Shown: positions 984 through 5,903, numbered from the stretch's first letter. The stretch: DNA of 64,000 bases from Halomicrobium urmianum (GCF_020217425.1 NZ_CP084090.1:2914001-2978000); one strand, 5' to 3'. Numbers and translations: made by a program. The notes: generated by a model from the sequence alone, not told the origin.

Positions 984-1175
984 TCAGGCTTCGACCTGCG
1001 CGCCCTGCTTGCTCGTGACGTAGCCGGCGATCCGGTTGCGGACGCCCTTCGACTCGACGTTGGTCAGCTCGCCGACGACGTCCTTGTTGTGCTCGAAGTC
1101 GTCGCCGAAGGCGTCGGGGTATCGCTCCATCAGCAGCTTCGCGGTCTTCTTGACGTAGGCGGGCTTGATTGCCAT
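984..1175 (-). CDS. rps17e: 30S ribosomal protein S17e
   Basis: A 63-residue basic protein matching archaeal/eukaryotic ribosomal protein S17e along its whole length. It starts [10 protein letters not shown] and contains the typical ERYPDAF and NRIAGYVT segments. It is a small-subunit ribosomal protein. The ATG at 1175 is the only sensible start. On its own strand the upstream DNA has a T-rich box about 35 bases before the start that could serve as the promoter. It is monocistronic and converges on the Mrp gene. A longer antisense/upstream frame covering this locus is a shadow. Confidence 0.96.
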
Positions 1176-1377: not shown

Positions 1378-1998
1378 TCACCACTCGGCGTCGACCTGCC
1401 GGCGGACCACGTCGAACGCCGCTCGCTCTCGCTCGCCGCCGCACCGCTCGACCACGTCCTCGAAGTAGGCCAGTCGCTCCAGCAGCCTGTCGGTGTCGTA
1501 GGCGTCGACGTCCAGCCGCGAGGCCGCGACGGTCGCCTCGACGACGGCGTAAAATCCGCGGTTGATAGCGGGGACAGCCTCCCGTTCGACGCCCGACTCG
1601 CGCGGCACCAGTTCCCACTCCACCCACTGCGTGTCGCCGTCGGTGCCGCTGTCGACCTCGCTCGCGTCGACCCGGACCCACGCGTCGGCCTCCTCGAGGA
1701 CGGGGTCGTCTGTCTCACGAACCGTCATCGCGGCCTCGGCGAAGGTCACGGGGTCGCGCGTGAACTGGACGTAGCCCCCGCCCTCCTCCCGGAAGTTCCG
1801 CCAGGTTCGGGTCCGGCCCCACGTTCGGGCCGTCGCCGCGCTGCCGCCTGTCGCCGGGTCGCCGTCGCGCCCCGGGTCGCCGTCTCCCTTCGGCGCGTGG
1901 ACGCCCAGCGCCGCGACGTTCCACCGGTCGTTCGGGCCCAGCGTCGTCACGACCGTCTCGGTGACCCCGTCGAGGTCGACCGGCCACTCCGCCGTCAT
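1378..1998 (-). CDS. DUF447 domain-containing protein
   Basis: A 206-residue soluble protein that looks like the archaeal DUF447 family, which has a flavin-reductase-like split-barrel fold. The N-terminus has the family-like run ETVVTTLGPNDRWNVAALG followed by GRTRTWRNF and YVQFTRDPVTFAEAA. Its ATG overlaps the stop of the CitG-like gene upstream by 4 bases (ATGA at 1995-1998). It is therefore the last gene of the cofD-led operon and is probably translationally coupled. The residues look suited to binding a flavin-type phosphate, but no reaction is known to me. Function is unassigned; the operon suggests a cofactor role. Confidence 0.8.
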   Translation of the reverse strand: MTAEWPVDLDGVTETVVTTLGPNDRWNVAALGVHAPKGDGDPGRDGDPATGGSAATARTWGRTRTWRNFREEGGGYVQFTRDPVTFAEAAMTVRETDDPVLEEADAWVRVDASEVDSGTDGDTQWVEWELVPRESGVEREAVPAINRGFYAVVEATVAASRLDVDAYDTDRLLERLAYFEDVVERCGGERERAAFDVVRRQVDAEW

Positions 1999-2828
1999 AC
2001 GTCCAGCCCTCGTTCCAGAGCGACGAACAGCGCACCAGCGACGAGGTCGGCCGTCGTGCCGGGATTGACGTCGCGGTCGATCAGCTCCGCGGCGAGCGCG
2101 TCGGCGTCCTCCTCCCCGTCGAGGACCGCCTGCGCCCGCCGGGTCACTTCCTCGGCCGTCTCGCGGTCGTTCCGCGTGACGACGAAGGTGTCGGGCTCCT
2201 CGGCCAGCAGTTCGAGGAAGACGATCGACGCCCGGTCCGGGACGGACCTGTCGGCCGCCAGCAATCGATCAGCCGCGTCGAAGACCCGCTCGAAGCCGCT
2301 GGTCCACTCGGCGGCCACGCCGTCGCGGTCTGCGCTGCGCTCCATCACGTCCGAGAGCGCGAGTCCGCGCTCGCGCAGCACCGGGACGGCGTCGCTGCCC
2401 CGGCGGACGTCCAGCGCTGCCATGTCCTCGGGCGGGTCGTCGACCGCGACGTCGACGTGCTCGAAGGCCCGGTAGAAGCCGGCCGCGTCCTCGACAGTCG
2501 TTTCCGCGACGACCTCTCGGGCTCGCTCACGGGTCAGATCGCCGCTCGCCGCCGTCGCGACCAGCGGCGTCACCACGAGGACGGCCCCGAACTGCGTGTT
2601 GCCGCCGCGCTGGTCGGCCATCCCCTCGATCGCGGTCTCGAAGGCCCGCCCGATCGGTTCGCCCTCGGCGGCCCGCTCGAACCCCGGACGCGCGCCGACG
2701 GCGCCCGCCAGAAAGTGCTCGAAGCGGAGGTCGTCGTACTCCCGCTCCCGGTCGACGTTGCCGGGCTTGGGCGTACTGGCGACCTCCAGCAGCAGCGCCA
2801 GTTCGGCGTTCCCCGCGATCGGCCTCAC
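1995..2828 (-). CDS. CitG-like triphosphoribosyl-dephospho-CoA synthase family protein
   Basis: A 277-residue member of the CitG/MdcB family. Characterised bacterial members join ATP to 3'-dephospho-CoA to make the prosthetic-group precursor of citrate or malonate lyase. Family motifs are visible: TPKPGNVDRERE near residue 17, and RGGNTQFGAVL near residue 93, equivalent to the NTHRGAIF-type motif. No citrate or malonate lyase gene is in the window. Archaeal homologues probably have another substrate. Both ends overlap neighbours by 4 bases, with DUF447 downstream and the Dus-like gene upstream, so it belongs to one polycistronic unit. The family call is good; the specific reaction is unknown. 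Confidence 0.82.
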   Translation of the reverse strand: MRPIAGNAELALLLEVASTPKPGNVDREREYDDLRFEHFLAGAVGARPGFERAAEGEPIGRAFETAIEGMADQRGGNTQFGAVLVVTPLVATAASGDLTRERAREVVAETTVEDAAGFYRAFEHVDVAVDDPPEDMAALDVRRGSDAVPVLRERGLALSDVMERSADRDGVAAEWTSGFERVFDAADRLLAADRSVPDRASIVFLELLAEEPDTFVVTRNDRETAEEVTRRAQAVLDGEEDADALAAELIDRDVNPGTTADLVAGALFVALERGLDV

Positions 2829-3589
2829 GGTGACACCTCCCGCTGTCGGAACCAGTCCTCGGTCGCCTCACGGACCCGGGCGAGGACGTCCGGGTCGTCG
2901 CTCGGGCGCCCGATGCTCACCGCGTCGGCGCCGTACTCGAGGTACTCCCGGACGGTCGCCGCGTCCCTGACGCCGTTGTTGGCGATCACGAACAGGTCCG
3001 TCGCCTCGACGACGTTCGCGACGACCCGCTCGGAGTCCATCGCGTCGACGTGGACGGCGTCGGCGCCGGCCCGATCGAGACGGGCAGCGAGATCGGGGAG
3101 GTCCACGCCGTCGACCTCGGTGCGGACCTTGACGCTGACCGTCGCGCCGGTCGCCGAGGCGGCCTCGACCTGCTTGGCGAGCTTTCCCGGCCGGCGTAGG
3201 AGTGCCTCGCCGGCGCCGGTGTCGCACATCTCCGCCTGCCGGCAGTGGGCGTTGATCTCGACTATCGCGCCGTGGTCTCGACAGAGGTCTGCGACCTCCT
3301 CGACAGGCACTAGCGTCGTGCTCCTGACGTTCACCGCCGGCCGGATCGGAACGTCGGCGAGCGCGCGCAGTTGCTCGCGCACGAAGCGGTACGGATCCGC
3401 CGGCAGGAACTCCTCGCGGTCGCGGTCGGCGACCATCTCGCGGGCGGCCTCGCGCGTCGGGCCGTCGAGCGCGATGCCGCCGAGGAAGGCGCAGCCGGCG
3501 TACTCCACACCGGCCCGGGCCCACTCGGCGTCGGACTGGCCGCTCAGGCTCGCCAGCGCGACGCGGGGCTCGAACTGGAGCGCGGTCAC
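2825..3589 (-). CDS. Dus-like TIM-barrel protein (tRNA-dihydrouridine-synthase superfamily)
   Basis: A 254-residue FMN-type TIM barrel related to the dihydrouridine synthase/dihydropyrimidine dehydrogenase superfamily. It keeps a Dus-like block with INAHC, in which the Cys aligns with the catalytic NxGCP Cys, followed by [10 protein letters not shown]. It also has VKVRTEV and the phosphate-binding end IANNGVRD...VSIGRPS. The HGRT motif of genuine tRNA enzymes is replaced by HVDAM, and the C-terminal tRNA-binding domain is missing. I therefore doubt that tRNA is the substrate. It overlaps CofD upstream and the CitG-like gene downstream by 4 bases each, suggesting a step in the same cofactor pathway. 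Confidence 0.8.
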
Positions 3590-4578
3590 CCGGCCACCTC
3601 CAGCGCCTCGGCGACGGCCCGGGCGACGCGCTCGCTGTCGGCGTCGCCGTCGATTGCCGTGTCCGTCCGGACGACGGGTCGATCCAGTTCCGTCGGGTCT
3701 GCTTCGTCGAGGACGAAGGCGTCGGCGAAGGGGTAGCTGTCCGCCACGCCCGCGGTCGAGGGCTCCCGGCCGACGGCGGCCATCAGGTCGGCGGCCGGTC
3801 CGGAGAACACCTCGTCGCCGACGAACGGGGAGACGGCGACGACGGTCGTCTCCCGCAGGGCCGCCTCGAAGCCGGGCACGGCGAGCATCGGCCCGATACT
3901 GGTGACCGGGTTAGAGGGGCCGATCACTACGGGGTCCGCGAGCGCCGCGTCGACGGCGTCGGTGGCCGTCGCCTCGTCGGCCCCGCGGAACTCGACGTCC
4001 TCGACGGGCGGTTCGCCGCCGCGCCCGACCCACCACTCCTGGAAGTGCTGGATGCCGTCGGGCGTCTGGATCAGCGTCGCCACGGGGTCGTCGCTCATCG
4101 GGAGCAGCGATCGCTCCAGCCCGAAGGCGTCCGCGAGGACTCGCGTGGCCTCGGTGAGGGACTGTCCCTCGTCGAGCAGGCTCGTCCGGGTGACGTGGAC
4201 TGCGCGGTCCCGGTCGCCGATGTGCATGAACTCCGCGACGCCGGAGAAGCGCCGCCAGCGGCCGATCTCTCGGCCCTCGGTCTGTCGCTCTGGCGGGAGG
4301 TAGCGCGGTCCGCTTCCCAGATCTGCCGCGTCGGCGAGTCGCTGGAGTTCCTCGTGGGTCTCGGCCGTGTCGTCGGCGATCCCCCACCACGTCTCCCGGT
4401 CGAGGACGCCGCCGTCGTGGAAGAGGACGGTGTCGACGTCCGGGCAGACGAGGTGACCGCCGAGGATGACGTCGTCGCCGGTGTTGCCGACGACCGTCGT
4501 CCCGGCCGGATCGAAGACGGCGTCGGCCCCGGCGAGGAGCTTCGGCGTCCCGGTGCCGCCGGAGAGGAACGTGACCAT
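3586..4578 (-). CDS. cofD: 2-phospho-L-lactate transferase (coenzyme F420 biosynthesis)
   Basis: A 330-residue CofD. It transfers the phospholactyl (or related phosphoenolpyruvyl) moiety to the deazaflavin Fo during coenzyme F420 synthesis. The start at 4578 gives [15 protein letters not shown], the family's N-terminal nucleotide-binding motif; an open extension to 4647 is not conserved-looking. VGNTGDD, the WGIADDT segment and the [13 protein letters not shown] block are all family signatures. It is the first gene of a four-gene operon with the Dus-like, CitG-like and DUF447 genes, all joined by 4-base overlaps. It diverges from the HD phosphohydrolase gene. Confidence 0.95.
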
Positions 4579-4679: not shown

Positions 4680-5903
4680 ATGACGACCATCAAGGACAGC
4701 GTCCACGACCACATCGAAGTCGCGGGCGTGGCCGCGGACCTCCTGGAGACGCCGCCCGTCCAGCGTCTCCGCCACGTCAAGCAGCTCGGGACGGTGGATC
4801 TGGTCTATCCCTCCGCCAATCACACCCGCTTCGAACACTCGCTTGGGGTCTACTACCTGGCCGACCGGGCGCTCTCCCACCTCGGCATCGAGGGCCAGCA
4901 GGCCGAGCGCGTTCGCGCGGCCGCGCTGCTGCACGACGTGGGCCACTCGCCCTACAGCCACAACGTCGAGGGGCTGCTCCACCGGGAGACGGGCAAGTAC
5001 CACGACGACGTCCACGGGCTGCTGGGGCGCGGCGAGGTGGCGCGGGGCCTCACGGAGCACGACCTCGACCCGGACGCCGTGGCCGACCTCGTGGCCGGCG
5101 ACGCGGAGCTGGGCCAGCTCGTCTCCGGGGAGCTGGACGTCGACCGGATGGACTACCTCGTGCGGGACGCCCACCACACCGGCGTCCCCTACGGGACCAT
5201 CGACCACGAGCGGCTGCTCCGGGAGCTTCGCTTCGTCGACGGCGAACTCGTGCTCGACGAGGGCAACGTCCAGACGGCCGAATCGCTGCTGCTCGCGCGG
5301 GCGCTGATGAACCCGACCGTCTACCAGCACCACGTCGCCCGCATCGCCAAGTCGATGCTGCGCCGCGGGACGGAGCGCCTGCTGGCCGAGACCGACGTCG
5401 ACGCCGAGGAACTGCGGCGCTGGGACGACAGCGACCTGCTCGTGGCGCTGCGGGACTGCGAGGCGACCGCGGGCTACGCCCGGCGGCTGGACGAGCGGAA
5501 GCTGTTCAAGCGCGGCGTCTGGGCCGAGCGGCGGGCAGTGCCCGACGACATTCTCGAAGCTGACCACGACCAGATTCGCGAGTACGAGCGGACCATCGCC
5601 GACGAGGCCGAGGTCGACTCCGACGCGGTCGTCCTCGACGTGCCCGACGAGCCCTCCATGACCGAGTCGACCAGCCGCGTCGTCGTCAACGGTGAGGTGC
5701 GCCGGCTGGGCGACCAGTCGACGCTGGTCGACGCCCTGCGGGCCGCCCAGCGCGACCAGTGGCGGCTCGGCGTGTACGCGCCCGAAGCGGTCTCCGAGCG
5801 CGTCGGCAACGTCGCCATCCGGACCCTCGGACTCGACCTGGAGGGCTCGCTGGTCCGGGACGTCCGGCCCGGCGTCCACGCCACCCTCGACGAATTCAGA
5901 TAG
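4680..5903 (+). CDS. HD superfamily phosphohydrolase (SAMHD1/dGTPase-like)
   Basis: A 407-residue HD-domain hydrolase of the type found in YdhJ/SAMHD1-like dNTP triphosphohydrolases. The metal ligands are visible: FEHS (His53), [12 protein letters not shown] (His85-Asp86 with a following His94) and the later Asp in [15 protein letters not shown]. The C-terminal third is acidic and less conserved. The ATG at 4680 follows a 100-bp divergent intergenic region shared with cofD. The likely substrate is a nucleotide or phosphoester; which one cannot be read from sequence. Confidence 0.9.

Follow-up and report, generated by a model that had tools for sequence, protein, structure and literature searches.

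Beta-RFAP synthase (RFAPS) is the first committed enzyme of methanopterin synthesis. In methanogens, which make tetrahydromethanopterin (H4MPT) with RFAPS and DmrX, a gene cluster of Dus-mmp9, CitG, DUF447 and DmrX is found, and a bacterial H4MPT/methanofuran island of the methylotroph type (in Sinorhizobium) also carries CitG-like, DUF447 and RFAPS genes together. CitG itself transfers a 5-triphosphoribosyl group from ATP to a hydroxyl and releases adenine. Here, we have analysed a four-gene operon (cofD, a Dus-like flavin barrel gene, a CitG-like gene and a DUF447 gene) that occupies positions 1378-4578 of a window of 64,000 nucleotides from Halomicrobium urmianum (GCF_020217425.1 NZ_CP084090.1:2914001-2978000), the window being that whole stretch of DNA. 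The operon shares the CitG-like and DUF447 families with the methanogen cluster, as neighbours in an unchanged order; the Dus-like gene lies upstream of them and cofD comes first, as in some of the other families. We show that it consists of two modules, module A (CofD and the Dus-like protein) and module B (the CitG-like and DUF447 proteins), and that module B is tied to RFAPS and to Mer by co-loss and by linkage. The operon would seem to connect F420 synthesis to a portion of a methanopterin-type pathway, which was thought to be lacking in haloarchaea.

That module B belongs with RFAPS was first hinted at by two genomes in a phylum sample (110 genomes, accompanied by control genomes). The CitG, DUF447 and CofD families are each present in more than 100 of the 110. 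If CitG and DUF447 were part of a methanopterin-type arm, haloarchaea losing them were predicted to have lost the unlinked RFAPS homologue as well, and five shared losers were found among 292 haloarchaeal genomes with a completeness of at least 90%. CitG is missing in seven of the 292 and the RFAPS homologue in seven, and both are missing in G034, G095, G145, G327 and G395 (P=2.6e-8 with genomes taken as independent, P=1.4e-4 by genus, the genus count being the only correction for kinship). DUF447, tested in 18 chosen genomes of the 292, is missing in exactly these five, whereas the remaining 13 all have it. Mer, the F420-dependent methylene-carrier reductase, was tested in 22 chosen genomes and is also missing in exactly these five; the 17 others have it with 51% identity or higher. 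All five losers retain CofD, and Dus still adjoins cofD there, which rules out the Dus-like protein as part of the co-lost module.

DNA containment shows that G145 is Halobacterium salinarum DSM 3754, G395 is Halobellus captivus, G384 is Halobellus clavatus and G362 is Halococcus morrhuae; G034 and G095 are the losers of genus g29. In a tree of CofD, H. salinarum is nested among relatives that keep the genes (a starred branch), while the g29 pair and Halobellus lie elsewhere. If presence is ancestral, at least three separate losses are needed (H. salinarum, genus g29 and Halobellus), the deeper forks of the CofD tree being weak. That four genes from three separate genomic places were lost jointly speaks against stray relics. 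The C1 lead, which an earlier reading of the window had dropped for want of haloarchaeal methanopterin (hereafter the sequence-only reading), therefore deserves following.

Gene linkages point in the same direction. Relocated DUF447 genes are found in three Halobellus genomes, G328, Halobellus clavatus and Halobellus limi (on a plasmid in the last), where the three genes adjoin in the order Mer-DUF447-RFAPS; in G328 and Halobellus limi, npdG lies divergently upstream of this cluster and two methionine synthase genes lie downstream. Mer also stands directly after cofE in 15 haloarchaeal genomes, H. urmianum included. The island on plasmid pEMPC1 of Sinorhizobium sp. BG8 encodes CitG, DUF447, an RFAPS homologue, a DmrX-like protein, a TIGR00284 DHPS-like protein, an MptN-like ligase, Fae and FhcB. 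It differs from the haloarchaeal arrangement in that Fae and Fhc are present, while CofD (searched for among the called genes), the Dus-like protein and Mer were not recognised there. In the control genome of Sulfolobus acidocaldarius, CitG, DUF447 and RFAPS are present and CofD has no match, and in that of Hfx. volcanii all four of these families are present.

The four-gene order is ancient and conserved. Of 80 cofD loci from named haloarchaea, 69 carry the full order cofD-Dus-citG-DUF447. Nine carry cofD-Dus alone, and in one of these, L167, the contig stops there. The locus of Halapricum hydrolyticum consists of cofD-CitG-DUF447 and lacks Dus, and a single locus shows cofD by itself. Outside the haloarchaea, families f18 and f32 also have cofD-Dus-CitG-DUF447, followed by a TIGR02700 dihydromethanopterin reductase (the f32 copy scores 244 bits, below the cut-off of 251), and the same reductase ends the operon of the Methanosarcina-type locus L113. 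In family f21, CitG adjoins DUF447 and Dus is separate. The haloarchaeal operon differs from the methanogen cluster in that DmrX is not adjacent and the RFAPS homologue is divergent. In addition, the Methanosarcina-type Dus-like protein of L113 continues at its C terminus into a methanogenesis marker 9 domain (TIGR03277), which is lacking here; alignment reveals the same C-terminal extension in several other Dus-like proteins.

The sequence-only reading had regarded the four genes as the makers of a single CofD-led product, either F420-linked or nucleotide-like. The tight operon with its 4-base overlaps would agree with a single product, as would the linkage of cofE to mer. However, CofD and Dus are retained by the genomes that lost CitG and DUF447, the latter two are found with no CofD beside them in the Sulfolobus control and the bacterial island, and many methanogen-type loci have Dus-CitG-DUF447 with cofD located elsewhere. 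As CitG and DUF447 are found without CofD, and CofD without them, we reject a one-product modification of F420 and consider any single product of the four genes very unlikely. Other parts of that interpretation have stood: the gene order is conserved between Halobacteria and other archaea (in methanogen loci without cofD), the Dus-like and CitG-like proteins are atypical, and CitG-like and DUF447 genes do occur near C1-carrier genes in methanogens and methylotrophs, as the TIGR02700 neighbours and the Sinorhizobium island illustrate.

The assignment of CofD is straightforward, since it exceeds the equivalog cut-off of TIGR01819 (384 vs 257.45 bits) and matches Methanosarcina mazei CofD (PDB: 3c3d) with E=1e-72. 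The CitG-like protein belongs to superfamily PF01874 (242 bits vs a gathering score of 27) and matches a solved archaeal homologue (PDB: 3h9p) with E=5e-27. Unlike the CitG/MdcB triphosphoribosyl-dephospho-CoA synthases, it stays far below the equivalog cut-offs (45 vs 282 bits for MdcB, 41.8 vs 272 bits for CitG) and has C1-carrier genes as its context, with no lyase genes seen nearby. It is thus not a canonical CitG, as had been proposed. Since methanopterin carries an alpha-ribosyl 5-phosphate attached to ribitol, a CitG-like ribosyltransferase would be a natural fit. In genus g21 (G026, G107 and G139), the CitG-like protein matches PF01874 as two pieces within a single open frame, which suggests that an insertion specific to this genus lies near its C-terminal part. 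The DUF447 protein matches both PF04289 (78.4 bits) and PF20766 (68.4 bits) above their thresholds. Its solved homologues (PDB: 2iml, 2nr4, 2ptf and 3b5m) are of the FMN split-barrel type, which fits a reductase role.

The Dus-like protein resembles the tRNA dihydrouridine synthases DusB and DusC in its TIM barrel of the flavin mononucleotide (FMN) type, its active-site Cys, the Lys and Arg of a VKxR motif, and its NN and GR motifs. It scores 42.5 bits against PF01207 and 110 bits against TIGR00736, the MJ0144 family (cut-off 218.7), the latter match spanning nearly the full model. In 24 haloarchaeal sequences, C116, K154, R156, H180, N204, N205 and R228 are invariant. The AlphaFold model, built with an alignment, has a pLDDT of 94, and its nearest folds are DusC, DusB, DHODB and DPD, flavin enzymes that all act on a C=C bond. 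As the sequence-only reading noticed, the Cys is retained (in INAHCRQ), HVDAM stands where HGRT would be, and the C-terminal tRNA-binding domain is absent from this protein of 254 residues, whose model ends at helix 233-252. These losses bear out the view that it is not an ordinary tRNA Dus. It is conceivable from the family names and the conserved Cys that the Dus-like protein still makes tRNA dihydrouridine and the CitG-like protein triphosphoribosyl-dephospho-CoA, their grouping in an operon being accidental. We find this highly improbable, because neither the tRNA-binding domain nor HGRT is there, both proteins score far too low for the Dus and CitG equivalog cut-offs, the gene order is conserved across archaeal families, and CitG, which almost every haloarchaeon has, was lost together with RFAPS.

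What could be the reaction of the Dus-like protein? An archaeal dehydro-F420-0 reductase, named CofX, has been predicted by Bashiri et al., who left the enzyme open (PMC6450877). We argue that the Dus-like protein is a good candidate for CofX because it is coupled to cofD and is retained with cofD. The proposed reaction would be FMN-dependent, like the reduction of dehydro-F420-0 by a nitroreductase fold, from which the TIM barrel differs. Nevertheless, CofX should be present wherever CofD is, and the Dus-like protein is not: G012 has CofD and no match to TIGR00736, Dus is absent at the cofD locus of Halapricum hydrolyticum, TIGR00736 has no match at E<=0.001 in 41 of the 110 genomes of the phylum sample, and several archaeal families keep CofD without the Dus-like protein. 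A universal CofX role is therefore disfavoured. Two variants of the barrel were seen in other archaea. In family f33 (L119 4427-5380), a degenerate barrel has lost the active-site Cys and has its marker-9-type C-terminal region intact, and in an f21 genome (L115 6165-7731), the Dus-like gene directly follows a dapF-looking gene and not cofD.

How the two modules could work together is suggested by the chemistry of their families, and we infer what the substrates and the product are, and in which order the steps proceed, as follows. In module A, CofD joins a phospholactyl or phosphoenolpyruvyl unit to Fo to build the F420 side chain, and the Dus-like flavin barrel would probably reduce a C=C bond, with dehydro-F420-0 the best candidate substrate. 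In the other pathway, the RFAPS homologue would form an arylamine riboside from a benzoate and phosphoribosyl pyrophosphate, DUF447 with its FMN fold would reduce an intermediate, and the CitG-like protein, by analogy with CitG, would move a 5-triphosphoribosyl group from ATP onto a hydroxyl with loss of adenine. The product would be a ribose-bearing tetrahydropterin that Mer would reduce to the methyl level at the expense of F420H2, and a methionine synthase would accept the methyl group from the reduced carrier, whose one-carbon unit is thus probably used for making methionine. F420 and the C1 carrier, the products of the two pathways, would then meet in one reaction, that of Mer. On balance, we think it probable that the operon couples two cofactor pathways in this way and that a methanopterin-type arm persists in haloarchaea, where it supplies a ribose-bearing C1 carrier to Mer and for methionine.

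Several observations weigh against such a carrier. MCH, expected to be co-lost, is present in 290 of the 292 genomes, including all losers, which weakened the idea that the whole C1 pathway needs the product; as MCH acts at an earlier step of the same C1 chain, part of C1 metabolism does not depend on this product. G328 and Halobellus clavatus (G384) have no CitG and keep RFAPS, DUF447 and Mer, so that CitG is not strictly required; together with the Halobellus linkage, it looks as if DUF447 acts with RFAPS and CitG is dispensable. Conversely, G237 has no RFAPS and has CitG, DUF447 and Mer. Genome searches covered RFAPS, MCH, Mer and related families, and H. urmianum itself has an RFAPS homologue (C1:656332-657279) that is above the cut-off of subfamily TIGR00144 (149.9 vs 113.5 bits) but below that of equivalog NF040726 (167 vs 328). 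Haloarchaeal RFAPS carries Asn in place of D19 of the Methanothermobacter thermautotrophicus enzyme (PMC6787355), in which D19N retains partial activity; R26 of that enzyme is kept, and the glycine-rich loop HxGxGSGTQ is conserved. In the literature, methanopterin-specific enzymes are described as absent from haloarchaea, HVO_2628, the RFAPS homologue of Haloferax volcanii, as probably not making RFAP, and tetrahydrofolate as the carrier in use, with Mer and Mch presumed to be folate-dependent (PMC8305020).

It is possible, though we hold it unlikely, that Mer acts on ordinary tetrahydrofolate while RFAPS, the CitG-like protein and DUF447 make another small molecule relevant to methionine, such as an arylamine riboside or a ribosylated folate side chain, and that these genes were lost jointly once methionine synthesis was abandoned. 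The published folate assignment, the retention of Mch in the losers and the methionine synthases adjoining RFAPS-DUF447 in Halobellus limi would all agree with this, but RFAPS, CitG and DUF447 cluster with H4MPT genes in both bacteria and archaea, which points to a pterin product, and Mer directly precedes DUF447 and RFAPS in the relocated clusters. Methionine is listed among the essential amino acids of H. salinarum (PMC2674319). This fits a loss of methyl-carrier synthesis but falls short of proof, since H. salinarum requires other amino acids too.

Reported enzyme absences notwithstanding (PMC8305020), the RFAPS homologue is inherited with CitG, DUF447 and Mer, which gives concrete gene candidates for late steps of methanopterin synthesis, besides one for the archaeal dehydro-F420 reductase that the literature calls open (PMC6450877). 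H. salinarum as a natural loser and Hfx. volcanii, which keeps the DUF447, CitG and RFAPS homologues, offer a ready-made comparison. Much more doubtful is the full proposal that the operon closes gaps in two pathways, the Dus-like protein being CofX (perhaps replaced by another enzyme in lineages lacking it) and the CitG-like protein the ATP-dependent ribosyltransferase still to be found for methanopterin-type carriers, and that haloarchaea make a new methanopterin-like C1 carrier, dedicated to Mer and methionine, beside folate. Within the library of papers searched, nothing was found linking DUF447 with haloarchaea, or the CitG-like protein or a triphosphoribosyl group with methanopterin.

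Two further observations concern RFAPS. One haloarchaeon has a second RFAP synthase (L239 5131-5961; G290:C1:131130-131960), which at 288 bits far outscores the haloarchaeal copy of this genome. The DNA around it has about 50% GC and also contains a gene for an integrase-like protein. In three haloarchaea (L122 9419-10255, L240 1241-2077 and L241 2836-3672), the RFAPS homologue is followed by a conserved gene starting RIPFGI..D..I.GGAP.GSVVLL, whose product looks like a RadA/KaiC-type ATPase.

The layout of the operon is given in Table 1.

Table 1. Features of the H. urmianum window in and around the cofD operon
Feature	Position	Strand	Evidence and remarks
cofD	3586..4578	-	TIGR01819, 384 bits; 2-phospho-L-lactate (or enolpyruvyl) transferase, F420 synthesis; module A
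Dus-like FMN TIM barrel, GTG start	2825..3589	-	PF01207; TIGR00736 below cut-off; module A
CitG-like (archaeal type), GTG start	1995..2828	-	PF01874, 242 bits; module B
DUF447 protein	1378..1998	-	PF04289 and PF20766; module B
GTGA overlap cofD/Dus-like	3586..3589	-	plus strand reads TCAC
GTGA overlap Dus-like/CitG-like	2825..2828	-	plus strand reads TCAC
ATGA overlap CitG-like/DUF447	1995..1998	-	direct sequence reading
rps17e, conserved downstream neighbour, outside the pathway	984..1175	-	translation; S17e conserved nearby
HD-domain protein, divergent upstream neighbour, conserved synteny	4680..5903	+	PF01966 and PF19276

The four co-directional genes lie on the minus strand where the sequence-only reading placed them, gene coordinates and family scans being in agreement. 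That reading is correct on the coordinates of the three overlaps and wrong on one detail, their sequence: it described every junction as ATGA, which is true of the CitG-like/DUF447 junction only. The other two are GTGA, and the Dus-like and CitG-like genes therefore start with GTG. The coupling it proposed is upheld, as exact 4-base ATGA or GTGA overlaps recur in named haloarchaea at 42 of 76 cofD-Dus, 53 of 68 Dus-CitG and 56 of 69 CitG-DUF447 junctions; 4-base coupling exceeds chance and is conserved. In Halapricum hydrolyticum, cofD and CitG overlap directly by 4 bases (L174 7005-7008). In the leader of the H. urmianum cofD, a TATA-like CTTTACG, read by eye, is located about 25-30 bases 5' of the ATG. 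S17e is found within 700 bp downstream in 50 of the 69 four-gene loci, and the divergent HD gene in 42 of the 69. Other archaeal families (L111, L117 and L097) likewise have relatives of the HD gene close to cofD, and the HD-domain protein is a possible functional partner of the operon.

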